Shown here one piece after another: positions 2,704-34,074 of a stretch of 36,073 nucleotides of DNA. How positions within the stretch are numbered: position 1 is the stretch's first letter; each line of letters begins with the position of its first letter. The DNA is from a virus. The stretch lies in the IMG/VR virus record IMGVR_UViG_3300012931_000014, positions 1-36,073 of that record. The stretch is one strand, 5' to 3'. Below the pieces are notes generated by a model. It had not been told where the DNA came from, did no database searches, and saw only the letters and a program-made list of their open reading frames with translations. The position numbers were made by a program, and so were the translations under genes.

Positions 2704-3203
2704 ACTATAAACCCCTTCGGTATTAATTCCTTAAATCCTGCTCCCCAACCATGTGTCTCGGCAAGCCATAAACCTTGGCAGTGTTTTGTGCAAAAGAATA
2801 ATCCTGACTTATTATTTTTAATTCTTCGTTCTCTTTTGGACTTTGGGGGATAAAATAAAATCCCACATTGAGAACATATTAGAAATCTTATTGTATACCT
2901 ACAAGAGGGGTATGGCTTCTTTTTATTTAGATATAAATGACAAACCCTGCACAGTAATTGTAAGTTCTTTATGTTATTTAAAATATTATATTTATACTTT
3001 ATATGATGTATGTGTCCAGATTCTCCAACCAATGCCCCGCACGAATTACATTTATAATCATACATTTCGTAAATTTCTCTGCGTAATTTATTAGAGGGGC
3101 TAACGCACTCTTGAATATATTGCCGACTAACATTATATTTCTTAGCTATATCGGAGTAACTAAGCCCCTTGCTTTTTTCTTTTACTATTAATTTTAAATC
3201 CAT
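2700..3203 (-). CDS. HTH-HNH endonuclease-like protein, first gene of the early operon
   Basis: 167 residues with three visible parts. Residues 5-40 form a sigma-region-4-like HTH (GLSYSDIAKKYNVSRQYIQE). Residues 46-90 form an HNH zinc module: CNSCG, then GHIHHIKYKYN, then LLCRVCH. The C-terminal part has another zinc-type set: CSQCGILFYPP and FFCTKHCQGLW. The ATG at 3203 lies only 6 bases from the -10 box at 3210-3215 and has no ribosome binding site, so translation is probably leaderless. HNH proteins with an HTH are often homing or packaging-associated nucleases. Its place as first gene under the switch promoter is unusual, and it could also act as an autoregulator. Confidence 0.75.
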   Translation of the reverse strand: MDLKLIVKEKSKGLSYSDIAKKYNVSRQYIQECVSPSNKLRREIYEMYDYKCNSCGALVGESGHIHHIKYKYNILNNIKNLQLLCRVCHLYLNKKKPYPSCRYTIRFLICSQCGILFYPPKSKRERRIKNNKSGLFFCTKHCQGLWLAETHGWGAGFKELIPKGFIV

Positions 3204-3209
3204 ATACGT

Positions 3210-3308
3210 ATAATAGCACTTATTTTACTAAATTGCAATACTTATTTTATCAATACGCAAAATATATTTTACTAAGGTATTGATTATTTTACTAAGTAGT
3301 GTTACTAT
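3210..3308. promoter_or_regulatory. Divergent promoters with four 22-base spaced operator repeats
   Basis: Minus-strand promoter: -35 TTGCAA (3233-3238), 17-base spacer, -10 TATTAT (3210-3215). Plus-strand promoter: -35 TTGATT (3280-3285), 17-base spacer, -10 TACTAT (3303-3308). Four copies of a TTATTTTACTAA-like sequence start at 3220, 3242 (variant TTATTTTATCAA), 3264 and 3284, so they sit about two helical turns apart on one face. Copy 1 fills the minus-strand spacer and copy 4 overlaps the plus-strand -35. This is a classic switch layout. The promoters are fitted by eye. Confidence 0.75.
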
Positions 3309-3338
3309 TAATTAGACTAATAAAAGGAAGGTAAAAAA

Positions 3339-3671
3339 TTGGAATCACAAAAAGAGTTAGATATCAAGCACCCTATTATGAACAAGCCTTTACCTACTAT
3401 ATTGGATGAGTTGGAAGCGGCAATTCTCAGGGCAGAACTGGCAGCACAAAAAGCCGAAGAGCACAGCGGAGAAGCCAAAGATTATGCCGACAAGGCAAAA
3501 GAAGCCGCATCGAGAGAAGTTAAGGAAGCTATCAAGGCGTTACTCCCCGACATCTTGAACGCCCAAGCAACCGCCGATAAGGGGCTACAGATTGCCAATC
3601 TAGCCAATAATAACGCTACAAAGGCACTGTGGACTATACCGCTGACCTATTTACCCAACTCAAGGATTTAA
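3339..3671 (+). CDS. Coiled-coil protein, probably frameshifted at its 3' end
   Basis: TTG start at 3339 with AAAGGAAGG 7-15 bases upstream. The first 95 residues form a long amphipathic helix rich in Ala, Glu and Lys (ELEAAILRAELAAQKAEEHS; EVKEAIKALLPDILNAQATA). After about residue 97 the sequence changes character (WTIPLTYLPNSRI) and stops. Another frame then carries the natural-looking continuation (DLFTQLKDLRDEFRDF). A single-base indel or a recoding event near 3615-3645 is likely. It is the first gene of the plus-strand unit facing the early operon. The function is unknown. Confidence 0.6.
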   Translation: MESQKELDIKHPIMNKPLPTILDELEAAILRAELAAQKAEEHSGEAKDYADKAKEAASREVKEAIKALLPDILNAQATADKGLQIANLANNNATKALWTIPLTYLPNSRI

Positions 3672-3790
3672 GAGATGAGTTCAGAGACTTTGCGGTTACG
3701 ATTGTAAACGGATTATCAGACTTCGGCGCCGGGATAGTTGCCAGTACTAAGTTTCTGAAAATGAAAGCTCCGGAAGAAAAGAAGGAATAA
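3629..3790 (+). CDS. Out-of-frame continuation of the coiled-coil gene, or small overlapping gene
   Basis: This frame is open from just after two stop codons at 3608-3613 and reads VDYTADLFTQLKDLRDEFRD from the GTG at 3629, ending KFLKMKAPEEKKE. The helical heptad character resumes that of the upstream ORF, and the stop lies 2 bases before the next ATG. I see no canonical slippery heptamer at the crossover. A weak AAGG lies before the GTG, so independent initiation is possible. The coding potential looks real; the way it is expressed is open. Confidence 0.45.
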   Translation: MDYTADLFTQLKDLRDEFRDFAVTIVNGLSDFGAGIVASTKFLKMKAPEEKKE

Positions 3791-3792
3791 CA

Positions 3793-4017
3793 ATGAAGAA
3801 CTTTATAACCTTTGTAATATTGGCTTTCACCACAACCTTAACCGGCTGTCTGCTGGCTATGTTTATTGACGCTGCCTTAAATGGGATGGTTTATACAATG
3901 AATATCAATCACTACGGGGAAGGGTTAATCGAAGTAGTCCTTATAGCTGTAGTCTTTTTGGTTGGTTTCATCTGGACTATTAAGTACCTGGTTGATTCAT
4001 TTAGGAGGGATAAATGA
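3793..4017 (+). CDS. Small membrane protein with two spans, 74 aa
   Basis: An N-terminal hydrophobic span (residues 4-27) contains LTGCLLA, which resembles a lipobox with Cys19. A second span lies at about residues 46-68 (VVLIAVVFLVGFIWTIKYLV), before a charged tail (DSFRRDK). It could be a small lipoprotein-like or plain two-span membrane protein. Its end overlaps the next gene by 4 bases (ATGA). The function is unknown; membrane genes beside lysogeny switches sometimes act in superinfection exclusion, which is only a suggestion. Confidence 0.65.
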   Translation: MKNFITFVILAFTTTLTGCLLAMFIDAALNGMVYTMNINHYGEGLIEVVLIAVVFLVGFIWTIKYLVDSFRRDK

Positions 4018-6308: not shown

Positions 6309-7109
6309 TTATCCTCCTAAAATTGCACCGAGTTTATCCCAGTTAATTTCTAAGACGTGAGCATCATACCCCCCGTGCTTTTTAAAACATTTGATTGCAG
6401 AGAATGGCAATAAGCATCTGCCATCTATGCCCCAATCTTCGCCCCAAGAGTTTTGAAGATTAAAATATTCAGTCTTATAATCGTGACCATAGAGAAAGGT
6501 CTCATGCCCGCCAGCGATAGAATCCCAACATCGAGGCTTTTTGAGTTTGCCGTTATCGTCTGTATAAGACCATTTATCATACCAGGGGGATCCGATTGCC
6601 ACTAGATTATTTTCTGATAGAGCTGTACATATTCCGTCAATACCATCGACAACGCGGGAATAAGATAATAAAGGTCGTTTTACTGCTTCTATATAAAGTT
6701 CGCTTGTTGGAGGTACTGGATTAAATCTTTCTTCATATTGCCATTGGCTTTCTAACAAACAACCATATTTTAATAACCATTCAAGGGCAAGTCTAGGTTC
6801 GGTTCCGCAATCCTCATTAACATAACCCCCGAGTTTCCTTCCTCCATAATAAATCCAACGTGGTGACATCCATTCTGTATAAATTCCTTTTTGAATTGTC
6901 TTACCGGTTAAAATCCCACCGATACCGTGACCAACACAAGAACCCTGATTCCCTTGATTAAGGACAAAAGGTAAAAATCCTGAAAGGTCAGACTTCTCTT
7001 TTATCTCAATTGGTTTCCTTGCAGTGATAAGCCAGTCCTTTTCATCTCTTTTGTCCTTAATCCAGCCGCCTATTAATCTATCCCTGTCATTTTTATACAA
7101 ATTATTCAC
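6309..7109 (-). CDS. Papain-like (C1) cysteine protease, candidate protein-degrading lysin
   Basis: 266 residues with a full C1 set. The oxyanion Gln and nucleophile lie in NQGNQGSCVGHG (Q52/Q55, Cys58), the histidine in GGHETFLYGHD (His202), and the asparagine in LQNSWGEDWG (Asn220), the standard C..H..NSWG order. There is no signal peptide and no obvious propeptide. The gene sits between the tail-tip genes and the small membrane proteins, where siphophages put the endolysin, and no amidase, lysozyme or glucosaminidase is visible anywhere. It may therefore be the lysin, or else a tail-associated entry protease. The GTG at 7109 is the longest start; a TTG at 7100 has a better spaced GAGGTG. 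Confidence 0.85.
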   Translation of the reverse strand: MNNLYKNDRDRLIGGWIKDKRDEKDWLITARKPIEIKEKSDLSGFLPFVLNQGNQGSCVGHGIGGILTGKTIQKGIYTEWMSPRWIYYGGRKLGGYVNEDCGTEPRLALEWLLKYGCLLESQWQYEERFNPVPPTSELYIEAVKRPLLSYSRVVDGIDGICTALSENNLVAIGSPWYDKWSYTDDNGKLKKPRCWDSIAGGHETFLYGHDYKTEYFNLQNSWGEDWGIDGRCLLPFSAIKCFKKHGGYDAHVLEINWDKLGAILGG

Positions 7110-20533: not shown

Positions 20534-21103
20534 TTAAATTCTCATTTTTTCTTGAAGTTGTTGAGTCAACTCTTTTACTTGCCACTTGAGTAACCGTATC
20601 TCCGTTCTTAACTCACAATGAGAGCACATGCTCTTATAGATAGCATGATTTTTAGGCGATATGAGTTCAAGATTTTCAATACGGTTATCATTTCGAACCC
20701 CATTTTTATGATGGACATGTTCTATTTTTAGAAGACGTCTGCCAAGGTGCTGTGCCATTATTAAGCGATGCTCAAGAATGCTTCCTTTCCCATTAGACAT
20801 ATTATAAAACGGGTCTTCTGGATATATCGGAATACAATTATATCCATGACAATTGTATTTACCGCCTTGCCAATTAGGATTTTTATTACCACGGAACGAT
20901 AGTGAACTTTTGCGCTTATGCTCTTCACTATACTCCCTGCCCTTTTTGGAACAAGAATTACAAAATTTAAATTCTGGGGTTCCTTTTATAAAGCGAACCC
21001 AGCGTTCTTTTCCACAACGTTCGCAAGCTGCCCAAATGCGACGGTTCTTACTATTAATTAAATCTAATGTTTTGCTACTTACTATTTCCCCTATTTCTGG
21101 CAT
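20534..21103 (-). CDS. HNH homing-type endonuclease
   Basis: I set the start at ATG 21103, which overlaps the zinc-ribbon stop (TAATG); a longer reading to 21154 runs inside that gene. The 189-residue protein has CERCGKERWVRFIKGTPEFK, CNSCSKKG, a GNKNPNWQGG linker typical of homing enzymes, then the HNH core EHRLIMAQHLGRRLLKIEHV, HHKNGVRNDNRIENLEL, and H170-type NHAIYKSM. A coiled helix ends it. Placed between capsid and decoration genes, it looks like an inserted free-standing homing endonuclease. Confidence 0.8.
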   Translation of the reverse strand: MPEIGEIVSSKTLDLINSKNRRIWAACERCGKERWVRFIKGTPEFKFCNSCSKKGREYSEEHKRKSSLSFRGNKNPNWQGGKYNCHGYNCIPIYPEDPFYNMSNGKGSILEHRLIMAQHLGRRLLKIEHVHHKNGVRNDNRIENLELISPKNHAIYKSMCSHCELRTEIRLLKWQVKELTQQLQEKMRI

Positions 21104-21222
21104 TATCTCTGCCCTCGCGGAATGTTCCAATAGGGGCTTTTGCACTTCGGGCAAACTTTCGGATTCTTAATTCTGGCAACCCATGAATGAGAACACCTTT
21201 GGCATTTGCAAGTTGTTAACAT
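21103..21222 (-). CDS. 39-aa zinc ribbon mini-protein (copy 1 of 3)
   Basis: ATG at 21222 follows GGAGGTTATAAA. The product is MLTTCKCQRCSHSWVARIKN, followed by PKVCPKCKSPYWNIPRGQR: two CxxC knuckles 16 residues apart and a CPKCKSPYW end. It closely matches the products at 29825-29944 and 34383-34520. Translation is coupled to the HNH gene (TAATG). Zinc binding is inferred from the four Cys; the partner is unknown. Confidence 0.75.
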   Translation of the reverse strand: MLTTCKCQRCSHSWVARIKNPKVCPKCKSPYWNIPRGQR

Positions 21223-22487: not shown

Positions 22488-23099
22488 TTATTTTAGTTCT
22501 GCTATGCTTATTTTCCGTTTATATAACTCCAAGCTTTCGTCAGCCCGCGCTTCCGGCGCTAGCCCCTGATTGACTGGTTTATCCTCTTCTTTTAATGAGC
22601 TTAAATAATCCCTTACCTTAACAGATGTTTGGGGATAAGCGGGATAAGTCACAGGAGAAACATCAAATAATCTAACCTCAGTTAAAGTCCTAATGGGTAT
22701 TTTTTCGGTTAAATCCCAAGTTTCTCCCATATCAGAAACAATAAACCCAAAAGACATCTGACTTATATCCCCCCTGTCTATTGATATCATAAGATCACGT
22801 GCCCATTGATTATCAGGGGGGTCAATCTCAATGTTCAAACCCTTTTCGTCCTCTGTTAATCTGAGGGTATTTGCCTTATTTCTTCCGAGGACATAGTTAA
22901 CATCGTGGTTGAATAATGCCCTGACATCATCCTTTTTGAGGCTCTTGGCGAAAGTGCCTTTCTCGATTTTTTCCCTGAATCCGCCAAGGTCTTCTGACAG
23001 GTTGTTAAACACTGCGGCGTATCCCCTAATTTTTGGTTTTTGTCCTTCTTCATTAATTAACCTCAATTCAACATCTAAATTTCTTCGTTCAATTTCCAT
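22488..23099 (-). CDS. HK97-type prohead protease
   Basis: 203 residues: IRGYAAVFNNLSEDLGGFRE, the catalytic His in VRALFNHDVNYVLGR, the Ser in ISQMSFGFIVSDM, and the LFDVSPVTYPAYPQTSV core. This is the Caudovirales prohead protease (HK97 gp4, peptidase U35) that cleaves the capsid delta domain during maturation. The C-terminal 45 residues are charged and disposable-looking. The start codon shares a base with the portal stop. Confidence 0.92.
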   Translation of the reverse strand: MEIERRNLDVELRLINEEGQKPKIRGYAAVFNNLSEDLGGFREKIEKGTFAKSLKKDDVRALFNHDVNYVLGRNKANTLRLTEDEKGLNIEIDPPDNQWARDLMISIDRGDISQMSFGFIVSDMGETWDLTEKIPIRTLTEVRLFDVSPVTYPAYPQTSVKVRDYLSSLKEEDKPVNQGLAPEARADESLELYKRKISIAELK

Positions 23100-24555: not shown

Positions 24556-27222
24556 TCAAAAGGTTTTAACACCCTCTGTCTCATAAATGGACATTTTGGG
24601 TTTATTAGAATGGCGGACAGCTCTATCCAATGCCATGCACAGACTTACTACTCCATCGATGCGCTGAGTAGCCTTAGATTTATCCGGTTTGATATTCCCC
24701 GCCGGATCCTGAGCGATGACAGCTGAGTCAGCATTCCACCTTAAAACTGGGTTATCGCCATGTTCTAACTTTCCGGACAATAAGGTGTCCATAAACCCCT
24801 TGGCTGCAGGTGACATACTTACATATCCTTGTCGGAACTGGACTAATAAGGGATGCCCGTCGCGTTTGTCTTTCTCATTGATAACAAATCCGTCATCCTG
24901 TAAATCTGTCAGGAGTTTAACAGTCCCCCATGGGTCATAAGCAAGTTCTTGCATATCGAACATTGCCCGGTCATCGTTTAACTGTTTTCTGATATAGGCA
25001 TAATCGATAAGATTACCTGGGGTCGTCTGGACATATCCCTGATGTACCCAGCGGGCGTATGGCACTCTATCGTGTTTTTCTTTTTCAGCGGCCATATCCG
25101 CGGGAATCCAGTAGCGCATTAGAACTTTGAATTTATCATCTACAGGGAAGACATGTGCAAGAGCGGTCAAGTCCCCACTACTTGAAAGGTCAAACGCTGA
25201 ATAACATCTTTTTCCTTTTAATTCTTCAATGTCCACCTTGCCGCCGCATTTATCCCAGTCTATTAATTTAATCCAGCGTGTCGATTGTTTTACCCAGATA
25301 TTAAGACGTAACTGCTTAAATGTGTTTTCTTCTTCGATTTTACGTTGCGCTTCCCTGAAAGCGTCACGGACTTTATCAATCTGAATTGTATGGCCTAAAG
25401 AGGGATTGACCTTGTACCAGTTCTCTTCGTTGGTCCAGTCCCAGTCAGTACCGGCTTCGTCATCCGGCGGACCGTAAATCACAGGGTAGAATGTCGGGTC
25501 TTCAATGGTTTCGTTTAGAATAGCCCTTGCTTTCTCGTGCAGTTCCCAACAGACAGAGTTTCTATCTATCCCCGCTGTTGTTATGATAAAGAATAAAGGC
25601 TGGCGCCTTGCATCCCCCGAGCCTTTGGTTAATACTTCATATAGTTTTCTATTTGGGTGAGCGTGCAGTTCATCGATGACTACACCGGAGACGTTAAGTC
25701 CGTGTTTTGTATTTACTTCTGAAGATAGCGTCTGCATAAAGGAATTGTCATTTATTAGCCAGATTCGCTTACGGGAATCATTAACCTTGCAACGTTTTGA
25801 TAGCGCCGGACTAAACCGTATCATCTGAGCAGCTGCGCCATAAACGAGCCCCGCCTGATCTTTGTCGGCGGCCGCACAATAAACTTGGGCGCCGGGTTCG
25901 TTATCTCCAAAAAGCAGGTAAAGCCCGACAGCGGCGGCCATTTCTGTATTATGTGTCGGAACCATGCCTTCGCCAGCCAGATACAAGTGAGAATAACTGT
26001 CAACTTGAATACATTTTACAGGTACGGATTCGACTGGATTGACGGCAACTATTTTTCTGAAGAAGTTTCGGGGGTATTTAATAGGTAGCAGTTTTTGACG
26101 TTCTAGTTTGCGTTTTAACTTAAAAACAGGGTTACCTTGATATGCCCAGAACTGAATCCTATATTTTAACCCGCAATCTTTACCATATAGTCTAGCCGTC
26201 TCTGCTTTGAATGACCGTTTAAATCCCAGCGTAATCAATAACTCTAATACATCAGATGCTATTTGCGATTCCGTGGTGGTGAATTCGCATTGTCCAGCCT
26301 TCGAAACATAACCATCCGAATCCATTAAACCCTGTAATAGTGATAGTCTTTGCTGATAGGATGCCCTTAGATATGAGCTAGGGATATGTTTATTATTTAA
26401 GAGGTTAGAATCACGCAAAGACCCAATAAGGGTAGGTCTCCCATTATGATTAGCCGTTCCGATTGGTGATAGAGATACCCGTACATCGAATGTACCAGGG
26501 TGTCTCGCATCCTTTTTAGGAACGGTAGTATAGTATCCAGCGTTTTCTACTTGAGCAACAAAATTGTAATAGTCTGCCTCACTCATAGTGAATTCAGCAT
26601 CATCATTCCTACCATCACCAAGCCAATAACCCAAAATATAAGGGTCAATCGGTAATGTGGCACTAGGAAGTATTAATGGTAAAGGATTAGCTATCTTATG
26701 ATTATGCCCGTTCTGATAGGCGAGCGTTTCGGCAATTTCCTTTGTGGTGTGTAATTTTGTTTTCAACCAAGGTTTATAAGTCGAAGTCAGCCATAAATGG
26801 GATTCATCCGCAATAATCTTGCTGTCATCTTCGAAGACAACCTCATAACACGGGTGACCGTATTGAATTCTGGTTGCATGGGTTACGCGACAAGTGTGAC
26901 CCTGTTCATCAAATAACTCATCACCCAGTTTAACTTCACCCATAGTAGTCCATCCGGATGGTGTAGGTAATGGAGTATCAAGTGCCAAAGCTTTACCGTT
27001 TTTCTTGGGGATCTCGATGTATACCGTGTTATATTGTCTGTATCCGTCTTCCCTGATAGTCCCGAATACATCACTAATAATCTTATGCTGCCACGGAAGG
27101 AGTTCGAACTTTCTACCTTTCCATTCACCAGTGGTAAGTTCTAAATTTTCTATGAATCGGATTGCCCTGTCCGCTTTAGCCTGACTGAATAGTGGTTTTT
27201 GGATTTCTATTTTAACGGGCAT
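24556..27222 (-). CDS. Large terminase subunit, split by an intein
   Basis: 888 residues; 540 remain after removing residues 78-425. The exteins give Phage_Terminase (PF03354-like) features: ELLPWQHKIISDVFG, Walker A PKKNGK|TEMAAAV reconstructed across the intein, Walker B VVIDELHA (D517, E518), and nuclease acidic residues in YSAFDLSSSGDL (D678), ELAYDPWGT (D763) and QRIDGVVSL (D856). It packages DNA and cuts it. The intein sits exactly between GK and T of the P-loop, so no ATPase can form until splicing. It follows the small terminase by 19 bases. Confidence 0.95.
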   Translation of the reverse strand: MPVKIEIQKPLFSQAKADRAIRFIENLELTTGEWKGRKFELLPWQHKIISDVFGTIREDGYRQYNTVYIEIPKKNGKALALDTPLPTPSGWTTMGEVKLGDELFDEQGHTCRVTHATRIQYGHPCYEVVFEDDSKIIADESHLWLTSTYKPWLKTKLHTTKEIAETLAYQNGHNHKIANPLPLILPSATLPIDPYILGYWLGDGRNDDAEFTMSEADYYNFVAQVENAGYYTTVPKKDARHPGTFDVRVSLSPIGTANHNGRPTLIGSLRDSNLLNNKHIPSSYLRASYQQRLSLLQGLMDSDGYVSKAGQCEFTTTESQIASDVLELLITLGFKRSFKAETARLYGKDCGLKYRIQFWAYQGNPVFKLKRKLERQKLLPIKYPRNFFRKIVAVNPVESVPVKCIQVDSYSHLYLAGEGMVPTHNTEMAAAVGLYLLFGDNEPGAQVYCAAADKDQAGLVYGAAAQMIRFSPALSKRCKVNDSRKRIWLINDNSFMQTLSSEVNTKHGLNVSGVVIDELHAHPNRKLYEVLTKGSGDARRQPLFFIITTAGIDRNSVCWELHEKARAILNETIEDPTFYPVIYGPPDDEAGTDWDWTNEENWYKVNPSLGHTIQIDKVRDAFREAQRKIEEENTFKQLRLNIWVKQSTRWIKLIDWDKCGGKVDIEELKGKRCYSAFDLSSSGDLTALAHVFPVDDKFKVLMRYWIPADMAAEKEKHDRVPYARWVHQGYVQTTPGNLIDYAYIRKQLNDDRAMFDMQELAYDPWGTVKLLTDLQDDGFVINEKDKRDGHPLLVQFRQGYVSMSPAAKGFMDTLLSGKLEHGDNPVLRWNADSAVIAQDPAGNIKPDKSKATQRIDGVVSLCMALDRAVRHSNKPKMSIYETEGVKTF
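25948..26991 (-). mobile_element. Intein with LAGLIDADG endonuclease, class 3 features
   Basis: 348 residues (78-425 of the terminase). It begins ALALDTPLPTPSGW, with Ala instead of the usual Cys/Ser. Block B has DESHLWLT with Trp144, block F has VPVKCIQVDS with Cys404, and block G is VPTHN with Thr423-His-Asn425, then extein Thr. This Trp-Cys-Thr set and the non-nucleophilic first residue define class 3 inteins. Two LAGLIDADG motifs are intact: LGYWLGDGR (197-205) and LLQGLMDSDG (295-304). It should both splice and home. Confidence 0.92.
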
Positions 27223-30029: not shown

Positions 30030-30440
30030 TCAAGGTTTTAATGGATTTGGGGACATATCTGTCCTTTTATGCTTATACTTTCGATGTGATTTCCACTCTG
30101 CATATGTCTGTTTTCTTCTTTTCGGTCCGGAGCTGATATAATTTAAAACCCGTCGTGCCGGTCTTGATAACAGCTCATAATCCTCAATGCCAGACTGCAC
30201 CTCGTCTATAAGAGCTTCCCCGGCTTCCCCGGTCGTCTCTAATCTCTGCTCAAGTTCGGCTCTGACACATCCAGCACCCTCGAACGGAGCTGCATAGCGG
30301 CGTGTCCGACTTCCACCGACATACCCAGTCTCTACCGGCTCAATCGGCCACATACCAGCTTCAAGCGGTAGAACATCACTGATCATCCAGATGCACTGGC
30401 CGCGGTCGAAGATTATTTTCCCTGGCGACCACCAGGTCAT
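30030..30440 (-). CDS. Hypothetical protein, 136 aa
   Basis: N-terminus MTWWSPGKIIFDRGQCIWMI, then a Pro/Glu part (MWPIEPVETGYVGGSRTRRY), an acidic helical part (CVRAELEQRLETTGEAGEAL) and a basic tail (KRRKQTYAEWKSHRKYKHKR). There is no recognised family. Its start overlaps the upstream gene by ATGA. It is the last gene of the early block, and its base composition is clearly richer in G and C than its surroundings. Confidence 0.7.
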   Translation of the reverse strand: MTWWSPGKIIFDRGQCIWMISDVLPLEAGMWPIEPVETGYVGGSRTRRYAAPFEGAGCVRAELEQRLETTGEAGEALIDEVQSGIEDYELLSRPARRVLNYISSGPKRRKQTYAEWKSHRKYKHKRTDMSPNPLKP

Positions 30441-30655
30441 ACGACCCCCCGCTGATGCAGCGCCGGCAGCCGGATCTCTTTATCCCAGTTCGTCTCTTTC
30501 GCCGGATGGCATACGGGGAGCCGATAGTGTCGAATAGTTGAGATATCCGATTCTTTCGGCACATCCAGTTTTGTGCCGTAGCGTCTCATTTGCAGATCGT
30601 ATAGATGTTGCAGAGCCTGGGGATGCTCGTCAAATAAAATCCAGTATATTTGCAT
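30437..30655 (-). CDS. Hypothetical protein, 72 aa
   Basis: MQIYWILFDEHPQALQHLYD, then a basic/aromatic middle and end (RLPVCHPAKETNWDKEIRLP). ATG at 30655 has AAGGTGAAGG in front. It is coupled at both ends to its neighbours. No domain was recognised. Confidence 0.65.
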   Translation of the reverse strand: MQIYWILFDEHPQALQHLYDLQMRRYGTKLDVPKESDISTIRHYRLPVCHPAKETNWDKEIRLPALHQRGVV

Positions 30656-30843: not shown

Positions 30844-31344
30844 TTAGTTAATAGGAATTACAAATTTCTTTATTGGTTTTTCGCAGTAAATACACAATTC
30901 GCAAGATACGCTCACTGCCTGCTCAACGTCATTTCCGAGATATAAGACTGCCAATGCAAACTCTCTACCAGCGCCAACAGCTTCATAAGAAACAACCTCT
31001 TTAACGAAGTAGTTTTCTATATAAAATACTTTACTATCAAATGCTATAATATAATGATTTTCAAGTTTAAATTCCCCTGTTTTTAATTTTTTCCACTCAC
31101 AAAATTCAGTTATAAAATTTAGTATTCCATCCTCATTTGAGTATGCGGGTTTATGCGTTAGGGCAAAGACCTGCATTAATCCACTTTCACTGGCAGTGCC
31201 ACAACTTCCAATAACCATTCCATTCACTGAGGATAACTTAGAGTAATTATCCTTCCCCTTTTCTTGGGTATATCCTTGAACCATAATAGAGTCCGAGGCT
31301 ATCTCTATTCGGTCTTCTAATATTTTGCAACAAACTATACTCAT
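30844..31344 (-). CDS. HslV-like Ntn hydrolase (proteasome beta-type), Ser nucleophile
   Basis: 166 residues lining up end to end with HslV: MSIVCCKILEDRIEIASDSI, then a YSKLSSVNGMVIGSCGTASE block like HslV's RKVRRL...AGFAGGTAD, YEAVGAGREFALAVLYLG like AIGSGGNYALSAARAL, and SVSCELCIYCEKPI like SLRIAGDICVFTN. After Met removal the first residue is Ser rather than Thr; Asp17 and Lys35 (mature numbering) sit where HslV has Asp17 and Lys33. It may form a proteasome-like ring with peptidase activity in the early phase. No HslU partner is encoded. AGGAGG precedes the ATG. Confidence 0.75.
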   Translation of the reverse strand: MSIVCCKILEDRIEIASDSIMVQGYTQEKGKDNYSKLSSVNGMVIGSCGTASESGLMQVFALTHKPAYSNEDGILNFITEFCEWKKLKTGEFKLENHYIIAFDSKVFYIENYFVKEVVSYEAVGAGREFALAVLYLGNDVEQAVSVSCELCIYCEKPIKKFVIPIN

Positions 31345-31354
31345 AAAATTCCTC

Positions 31355-31525
31355 CTAAAGTTTAATATTCTCCCTGATTTCCTCGATCCTTACTGGTTGA
31401 TTATCTTCCTGGTGTATTAATACTTTGCCAAATACCAATGTGCGAAGTCTTTTAATTAAATGCGCCTCTTTCTCCGACAGCTCCATCATCACCTTGCCTG
31501 TTACGCTCTGTGTCTCTGTTTTCAA
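31355..31525 (-). CDS. 56-aa hypothetical protein
   Basis: TTG start at 31525 overlaps the stop of the upstream mini gene (TTGA), with AGAGG before it. The product reads KTETQSVTGKVMMELSEKEA, continues HLIKRLRTLVFGKVLIHQED and ends with charged residues. It has no known domain; the last helix suggests a small DNA- or protein-binding peptide. It precedes the HslV-like gene. Confidence 0.5.
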   Translation of the reverse strand: MKTETQSVTGKVMMELSEKEAHLIKRLRTLVFGKVLIHQEDNQPVRIEEIRENIKL

Positions 31526-31641: not shown

Positions 31642-32010
31642 TTATACCTCGCTCGATTCCAGTTCCTTGATTTTGGCTTTCAAATAGAGCTTGATTAATT
31701 CCCTGTCTGTCTTTCCGTTATATCTCCCCCTTGCTTTCACCAGGTCGTACCTTTCCTGTCCCAGTTTCTTAATCATAAAATCTTGTTCATATTCGTCATT
31801 TTCCTCAAAATACTGATGGCATCCGAGACAAACCGAAATACAATTATCTTCATCCCAGCGCGTCGATAGCTTTCTTCGATGATTTATAGCGTGATGACAA
31901 TGTAGCCCCCTCCTGTCTGGGGTAGAACCACAGCGCTCACATTTCCAGCTCGCTTTCATTCTGATATATCGACTGAACAATAGATCTAAAGAATCAATTC
32001 TAACTTTCAT
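31642..32010 (-). CDS. HNH protein, NinG/Rap-like
   Basis: 122 residues: SLDLLFSRYIRMKASWKCER with CERCG (zinc), then GLHCHHAINHRRKLSTRWDE, DNCISVCLGCHQYFEEN, and a long helical end. The order FSRYIR-CxxC-HH-RWDEDN-CxxCH recalls the lambda NinG (Rap) recombination endonuclease more than homing HNH enzymes. Placed in the early operon near the ATPase, it may process recombination or replication junctions. It could also be a generic HNH protein. Confidence 0.75.
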   Translation of the reverse strand: MKVRIDSLDLLFSRYIRMKASWKCERCGSTPDRRGLHCHHAINHRRKLSTRWDEDNCISVCLGCHQYFEENDEYEQDFMIKKLGQERYDLVKARGRYNGKTDRELIKLYLKAKIKELESSEV

Positions 32011-32829: not shown

Positions 32830-34074
32830 TCATATAATACATAGCCCCCACTTCCCTGAATCCAGTTTGATAATCTCGTTTTTGTCTTTTAACCTTTTAA
32901 GAGCCACCCTGGCATTGTTATTTGTGATAGATAAAGCATCTTGAATTTCCTGTGTTGTTTTAATACCATCTTTTAGGAGGTCTTTAATTTGAGCTTGTGT
33001 TCCCAACGCCGATAAAAATTCTCCAATAGACTGTGGGGAACTTCCACTAATTATGGTTTTGTTATCTATTTCGCCGTCCCCTTTAAATTCCATGTGCAAC
33101 CCCATTGGTTTATGAAGTCTGGTAAATGGAGCCGGTTTGCGATGGAATAATGCTATATCCATTTCGTTTGAGTCTGCCTCTTGTGATTTTTTAATCTCCC
33201 AGATTGACCGGGCTTCTGCTGTATAATAAACATTCCCGTAGACTGATTTCTTTTTGTCCTCGCTTTTTGCTGTATGAGCTAATATCAAACTGGTTGTTTT
33301 AAGTTTTCTCCATGCTGTCCAAAAATTAAGTGCTGGCTCTGTTAAATTCAAATCACCCCCGGCGGCTAACCCCAGGCTATCGATTATCACCACTTCTGCT
33401 TTGCTTTCTATAACTTTCCCTGAGATTTGTTCAATATCATAATTCAGTGGGGAGCTACAACGTAAATAATTCAAAAATAATGGGGGCAGATTCATCCCCC
33501 TTTGAATACAGGAAAGTGACCATCTTATAGTCGATTCGTCGGTCTCCCAATCCAAGTAAAGTATTTTGATTGGCTTACTTGGGACTGCCCATTCAAAAGG
33601 GTTGTCGTACCAGGGCAAAATCATAAGAACTGAAAGTATCAAGGCAAATAAACTTTTAGATGATGACGGGTCGCCAAAGATTATAGTCGGATAATTACGT
33701 ATTATAAAAGGATGTATCAAAAATTCCGGGGGAGTAGCGGTTCCATCGTCTGTATTTATTTCTATAATTGATTCTCCCCGTCTGAACTTTTCAAGGGTAT
33801 AGACACAGACTTGTTCGAGGATTGCCCCCCAATCCGCCTCCAAACGTTTATTGAGGATACTGGCTAATCTATCCCTTGTAACACCGGATGAGAAATTAAA
33901 ACTAGCCTGATGTAGATGTCCTGAGGATACACCCGGAGATGTAGAGGAGATAACTATCTCACCTTTTAACTCCTGTGAATGCAAGGTGAGTCTACGGCAT
34001 TCTATTCGTATATTTTCATTTTCCCAATAATAATCATATCCGCCAACCACGTCTATAACTTTAGGAAGGCTCAT
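32830..34074 (-). CDS. RepA-like AAA/RecA-type ATPase with C-terminal winged helix
   Basis: 414 residues. Walker A is FGDPSSSKSLFA (134-141 core), followed by ILYLDWETDE, Walker B VVIIDSLGLAAGG (228-232), and a LILAHTAKSEDK sensor segment, as in hexameric RepA (RSF1010-type) or AAA_25 helicases. The last 65 residues (IKDLLKDGIKTTQEIQDALS, VALKRLKDKNEIIKLDSG) form a winged helix able to bind DNA. With no polymerase or primase in the genome, it is the best replication initiator or helicase-loader candidate, next to the GTTAC array. Its start overlaps the previous gene by 4 bases. Confidence 0.85.
   Translation of the reverse strand: MSLPKVIDVVGGYDYYWENENIRIECRRLTLHSQELKGEIVISSTSPGVSSGHLHQASFNFSSGVTRDRLASILNKRLEADWGAILEQVCVYTLEKFRRGESIIEINTDDGTATPPEFLIHPFIIRNYPTIIFGDPSSSKSLFALILSVLMILPWYDNPFEWAVPSKPIKILYLDWETDESTIRWSLSCIQRGMNLPPLFLNYLRCSSPLNYDIEQISGKVIESKAEVVIIDSLGLAAGGDLNLTEPALNFWTAWRKLKTTSLILAHTAKSEDKKKSVYGNVYYTAEARSIWEIKKSQEADSNEMDIALFHRKPAPFTRLHKPMGLHMEFKGDGEIDNKTIISGSSPQSIGEFLSALGTQAQIKDLLKDGIKTTQEIQDALSITNNNARVALKRLKDKNEIIKLDSGKWGLCII

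Follow-up and report, generated by a model that had tools for sequence, protein, structure and literature searches.

Does a phage gene that resembles a bacterial HslV peptidase, with Ser where the catalytic Thr would be expected, encode a proteasome-type hydrolase, and if so, to which subfamily does the product belong and what could it do during infection? The question is raised by a minus-strand gene at positions 30844 to 31344 of the virus record IMGVR_UViG_3300012931_000014. The window analyzed is the whole of this virus record, 36,073 bases, which may be a genome fragment. Recognizable genes for terminase, portal, an HK97-type maturation protease of the head, capsid, and tape measure mark it as DNA of a tailed phage. 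Profile searches and structure prediction identify the 166-residue product as a subunit of the proteasome type with a predicted N-terminal nucleophile (Ntn) hydrolase fold. It is most likely a phage-encoded group-I proteasome homologue, kin to phage PPH and bacterial BPH, and its likeness to HslV holds at the level of the fold only.

A Proteasome-Type Subunit Encoded by a Tailed Phage

The gene and its start signal were placed as follows:

30844 to 31344, minus strand: predicted proteasome-type Ntn-hydrolase subunit, 166 residues, ATG start (phrog_1040, E 2.3e-15; AlphaFold2 model; alignment column counts)
31345 to 31359, minus strand: ribosome-binding site region, AGGAGG 6 nucleotides ahead of the ATG (sequence)

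No alternative in-frame ATG, GTG, or TTG lies between this ATG and the stop codon upstream. Ser2 is therefore a secure predicted mature N-terminus, given both the AGGAGG spacing and the sole common start in frame. The G+C content of the gene is 0.35, against 0.41 for the window.

The only PHROGs family that the protein matched significantly was phrog_1040 (“peptidase HslV family”), and all 46 rows of the alignment later used for modeling (A6) match that family. It scored 50.5 bits on a profile of 12 mixed phage homologues and 44.5 bits on one of 86 PPH-type phage homologues (a set defined by our own sorting on length and Asp position), both built without the protein itself. The score was 26.6 bits on a profile of 30 BPH and 4.4 bits on an HslV profile, which is narrow (six sequences) and on which the shuffle maximum was 3.2. 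Shuffling the protein 200 times gave at most 4.6 bits on any of the four profiles, with 148–166 of the 200 shuffles scored per profile.

Searches that started from the single sequence were less informative. Pfam, NCBIfam, and PADLOC gave nothing above cut-off, and the sole Pfam row, HATPase_c_4 (E 0.033), lies under its cut-off and was taken as chance. The protein as a single query had no useful match among viral contigs, genome contigs, or plasmids, the PDB returned just chance-level polyprotein rows, and megablast of record bases 1–25000 against phages gave nothing useful. Among annotated phages, its direct matches were only five Microbacterium phage “protease” genes, all weak (best E 7e-4). 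When WaterT gp15, a “protease” of a Microbacterium phage (MN096357), was used as the query, 494 of 50,697 phage records matched at E ≤0.01, and among the 60 matches listed many are named HslV family.

AlphaFold2, run on alignment A6, gave a single-chain model with a predicted local distance difference test score (pLDDT) of 89.7 and a predicted template modeling score (pTM) of 0.84, containing the strands and two helix pairs expected for a proteasome subunit. Foldseek ranked BPH at the top (1.0e-10), followed by HslV (from 7.3e-09), and a second structural aligner gave Z 22.8 for BPH (root-mean-square deviation 1.9 over 164 residues) and Z 19.4 for the best HslV. With both BPH and E. coli HslV, the first aligned pair was model residue 2 and chain residue 1, the nucleophile. 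The defining features of proteasome-like Ntn hydrolases, as listed in PMC8665760, are all found here: a beta-sheet core flanked by helices, an N-terminal Thr or Ser, Asp17, Lys33, and Gly47. Together, the profile, shuffle, and fold results rule out a chance match to the family. A preliminary description made from the sequence alone had proposed an Ntn/proteasome fold with Ser at the nucleophile position after Met; the model agrees with the former, and the alignment of Ser2 with chain residue 1 and the well-supported start codon bear out the latter.

Active-Site Residues and the Ser/Thr Exchange

When the protein is aligned with six HslV sequences and the 98 other homologues from phages, Ser2, Asp18, Lys36, and Gly49 fall on Thr1, Asp17, Lys33, and Gly47. 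The Asp18 column is Asp in 96/98 of the phage homologues, the Lys36 column Lys in 97/98, and the Gly49 column Gly in 93/98; the retention of Asp17 with a Lys nearby, already pointed out in the preliminary description, is confirmed by these columns. The position of Ser129 is occupied by Ala125, a substitution that had escaped that description. In the proteasome, the Ser129-type residue hydrogen-bonds the N-terminal amine.

Residue 2 is Thr in 84 and Ser in 14 of the 98 other phage homologues, and Thr in all six HslV. Including the 166-residue protein, the 99 unique N-terminally complete sequences comprise 84 with Thr and 15 with Ser, and never a third residue. They came from a set of 121 open reading frames (ORFs), 100 of them unique, from which the truncated L111 was dropped; L002, a duplicate of the 30844–31344 locus, was excluded from counts, and starts were set by profile rather than by annotation (93 M, 4 V, 2 L). 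By source, Ser occurs in 1/13 annotated phages, 1/16 sequences of the A3 scan, 10/63 of the A4 scan, 0/2 for L109–L110, 2/4 for L211–L214, and 1/1 for the protein itself. The A4 scan required Thr or Ser in one of two patterns and kept, of 462 places, the 80 most like L127, which is itself a Ser1 protein. Among L112–L210, 38 sequences fit a pattern in the C-terminal part that takes no account of residue 2, with 30 Thr, eight Ser, and no other residue; this set escapes the bias of the Thr/Ser patterns only, and the retention of places like L127 may still inflate its Ser share.

Ser1 is even more frequent in bacterial BPH genes (26/30). The BPH set consists of 30 loci from 35 of 274 matching genomes; BPH was found in bacterial genomes, and tblastn of BPH against phages gave no match. 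Ala stands at the Ser129 column in 10 of the 26 Ser1 BPH genes, and the Ser1 and Ala pair of the phage protein thus has a parallel in BPH. Within this set (L228–L257), Ala accompanies just Ser1, since all four Thr1 genes keep Ser, although these are too few for a firm link. On a tree of 49 rows, Ser and Thr were exchanged at the nucleophile in at least five changes. Ser in place of Thr1 had at first been presented as exceptional, a view that does not survive these counts or the literature, as Ser1 in BPH and in CodW was described in 2017 (PMC5777263). A T1S mutant of the proteasome still reacts, with one peptidase activity down 40–45% (PMC4792962).

Relationship to HslV, BPH, and PPH

The 49-row tree took in 32 of the 98 phage homologues and 10 of the 30 BPH. 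In it the protein groups with WaterT and the viral contigs L109 and L110 (support 94/70) and falls outside both the BPH clade (99/100) and the HslV clade. Grouping with BPH was not rejected by the approximately unbiased (AU) test (p 0.249), and grouping with HslV was narrowly not rejected (p 0.073). An HslV orthologue is supported neither by the profile (4.4 bits) nor by the fold ranking, though the AU test does not reject that grouping. It had been suggested that the protein follows HslV motif by motif. The fold and the catalytic residues stand; HslV identity is not supported, given the profile score and the better fold match to BPH.

WaterT gp15 (176 residues) shares with the protein the Asp at mature position 17, and its gene also lies upstream of the terminase gene, but it has Thr1 and a Ser at the Ser129 position and is 22% identical in alignment A1. 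PPH resemble the 166-residue protein in being phage-borne, of group-I type, without an AAA+ partner, and of short chain without propeptide. They gave the second-best profile, and they are found in tailed phages, of which the present record is one by its terminase, portal, capsid, and tape measure genes. However, PPH are described as having about 140 residues and as missing helix H2 (PMC8665760), whereas the model of the 166-residue protein has an H2 of 19 residues (71–89). The model of L127, a PPH-type Ser1 protein (pLDDT 94.5), has a helix of only five residues (64–68) at the place of H2.

BPH (PDB 5ovs, 5ovt, 5ovu) are the best solved fold match, have Ser1 in many members, and have no known unfoldase (PMC5777263). 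Two of their marks are a tetradecameric double ring and a long, acidic pore loop that joins H2 to S7. The loop is without counterpart here, in the alignment as in the model, where the next strand starts at residue 97 and the linker from H2 has about seven residues (90–96). HslV (ClpQ) shares the fold, the Asp17/Lys33 layout, and the short linker from H2 to the next strand, but usually has Thr1, with CodW of B. subtilis as a published Ser1 exception. The combination of traits in the phage protein fits none of HslV, BPH, and PPH exactly.

Genomic Neighborhood and Distribution

Three further genes bear on the function of the peptidase gene:

31642 to 32010, minus strand: NinG/Rap-like HNH junction endonuclease, next gene upstream across a 297-nucleotide gap (phrog_5034, E 4.8e-19; PF05766)
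32830 to 34074, minus strand: RecA-like ATPase, AAA_25 (PF13481, E 1.2e-14)
22488 to 23099, minus strand: HK97-type head maturation protease (phrog_80, E 9.3e-60)

A recombination directionality factor-like gene also lies upstream. On the downstream side are two short genes that match no family, together with an HNH gene, the terminase gene, and a gene of ParB/methyltransferase type. The peptidase gene thus sits at the seam where replication/recombination genes give way to those for packaging, and the “early operon” of the preliminary description is putative. The two short ORFs just downstream (30030–30655, minus strand) have a G+C content of 0.50–0.51, and L016 contains a relative of one of them at 31% identity.

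The AAA_25 ATPase is, by our reading, of replication type and not an HslU/Clp unfoldase. Neither PF07724 (AAA_2), which we take to be the HslU family, nor PF00004 (AAA) matched at E ≤0.01 in the phage record, possibly a fragment; controls for the PF07724 search were positive in 14/14 cases. By these two families the record shows no dedicated unfoldase, in line with the preliminary description, which had seen no unfoldase gene. Among 20 carrier records, this one included, none passed the cut-off for either family (0/20). For the new proteasome homologues, phage ones included, no AAA+ partner had been identified as of 2021 (PMC8665760).

Phages with related portal proteins had no peptidase homologue in the 12 records searched. 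When three of these were searched again beside seven carriers (the phage record plus sources or near copies of profile rows), the three were empty and the carriers were positive in 7/7 cases. The portal-related loci L015–L108, many of them short, had no A1 profile match at E ≤1, and tblastn pieces there were at chance level (best E 0.46). Because portal-related phages lack a homologue as far as their records go, we infer that the peptidase gene is an accessory infection gene and not part of the virion-building module. Prohead processing, one of the roles first considered for it, is unlikely and would be needless, since the phage encodes its own HK97-type protease. Takeover, anti-defense action, and use of a host ATPase, which were put forward with it, are candidate roles only.

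Proposed Function and Alternatives

We consider it probable, with considerable room for doubt, that the protein, as the product of an accessory infection gene, is a Ser1 ring peptidase that has no dedicated ATPase and whose substrates are a narrow range of peptides or unfolded proteins. Host methionine aminopeptidase would strip Met1 and expose Ser1, and the subunits would form a single or double ring that encloses the active sites. With Asp18 orienting it, Lys36 would activate the Ser1 hydroxyl, which would then cleave these few substrates. The likeliest benefit may be removal of a host peptide or protein, perhaps one of defense, a guess from gene position and distribution. BPH offers a precedent: once Met is removed, the N-terminal Thr of the protein binds epoxomicin, and no unfoldase is known for it (PMC5777263).

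Several observations weigh against this proposal. Purified BPHs cleaved neither standard peptides nor casein (PMC5777263), so a complete active site does not guarantee activity. Ala125 may weaken catalysis in place of the Ser129-type residue, a column that holds Ser in 82, Cys in 13, and Thr, Gly, and Ala in one each of the 98 other phage homologues. No close homologue of the protein was found in the searches above, and in the tree it sits on a very long branch (2.04) with only moderate support for its placement (94/70). In the carrier records, sub-threshold matches to PF07724 (2/20) and PF00004 (10/20) were seen, none of them in the phage record. As carrier and relative records may be fragments, a missing gene or ATPase is no proof.

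One alternative is that the protein has HslU or ClpX of the host as its unfoldase and in this way turns host proteolysis on substrates chosen by the phage. The lack of any AAA_2 or AAA match in the phage record would fit such a partnership, as would CodW, a Ser1 HslV that needs its ATPase for activity (PMC5777263). However, the score on the HslV profile is near shuffle level, and BPH, the nearest solved fold, has lost the HslU-interface residues (PMC5777263); we regard this arrangement as rather improbable. The protein could instead be catalytically weak or dead and act structurally, either as a binder or by entering and poisoning host HslV or BPH rings. Low sequence conservation, the Ala at the Ser129 position, and the lower efficiency of Ser1 in the proteasome (PMC4792962) point that way. 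On the other side, the active-site set of Ser, Asp, Lys, and oxyanion Gly is complete, residue 2 is Thr or Ser in 99/99 sequences and in 38/38 of the set unbiased for that residue, and identities of 12–17% to the HslV chains compared would make mixed rings unlikely. A structural role of this kind is in our judgment just as improbable as a host-unfoldase partnership.

It is still harder to credit, and we hold it very unlikely, that the protein is a specific modifying enzyme (a ligase, transpeptidase, or amidase acting on one partner) and not degradative. The model would be connectase, a monomeric ligase belonging to the proteasome-like family (PMC8665760), and the absence of general protease activity in BPH (PMC5777263) is compatible with it. 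Returning to the Ser1 ring peptidase, a bolder version is that the retained H2, the shortness of the pore loop, Ser1, and an Ala in the Ser129 column together mark an undescribed phage lineage of ATP-independent, serine-type compartment peptidases acting in infection, which we consider unlikely.

Other Features of the Phage and Its Relatives

The large terminase ORF (888 residues, 24556–27222, minus strand) is interrupted by an insertion that looks like an intein, at about residues 78–425. Relatives L015 and L017 match both flanks as adjacent DNA, and LAGLIDADG_3 and Hom_end match residues 280–356. An HNH ORF (20534–21154, minus strand; HNH_3, E 1.9e-10) separates the capsid gene from the structural gene that comes next. 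In L015, a stretch 35% identical to it occurs at another place and in the other orientation, which would be usual for a mobile gene of the homing type. A further protease of the phage, outside the head module, is a papain-type peptidase encoded downstream of the tail genes (6309–7109, minus strand; PF00112, E 1.8e-05; phrog_16701, E 1.6e-18). Aeromonas phage 4L372D (L014) has two very different “peptidase HslV family” genes in tandem (2345–2896 and 2914–3798), the second with a long C-terminal extension; such a pair could hint at mixed rings.

Significance

The naming of phage proteasome homologues that lack an ATPase partner dates from 2021 (PMC8665760). A “proteasome-like” gene appears beside a Clp protease in a phage table, classed under protein catabolism (PMC7289586), and HslV family enzymes have been put in a lysis module and called essential for host interaction, in a passage of PMC11841896 that reports no test of the gene. 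No tested function of any phage proteasome homologue was found in the open-access literature, subscription papers and preprints being outside that search. The 166-residue protein is a distant new example of these known homologues, and both Ser1 and occurrence in phages were known before. Phage proteasome homologues are common, as the number of records matched by a single query (494/50,697) indicates. Being divergent, equipped with Ser1, and modeled as one compact domain, this protein would be a handy test of protease activity free of an ATPase, and of Ser/Thr interchangeability at the nucleophile outside BPH. If it did belong to an undescribed lineage, the Thr/Ser exchange at the nucleophile would be recurrent functional tuning rather than drift.
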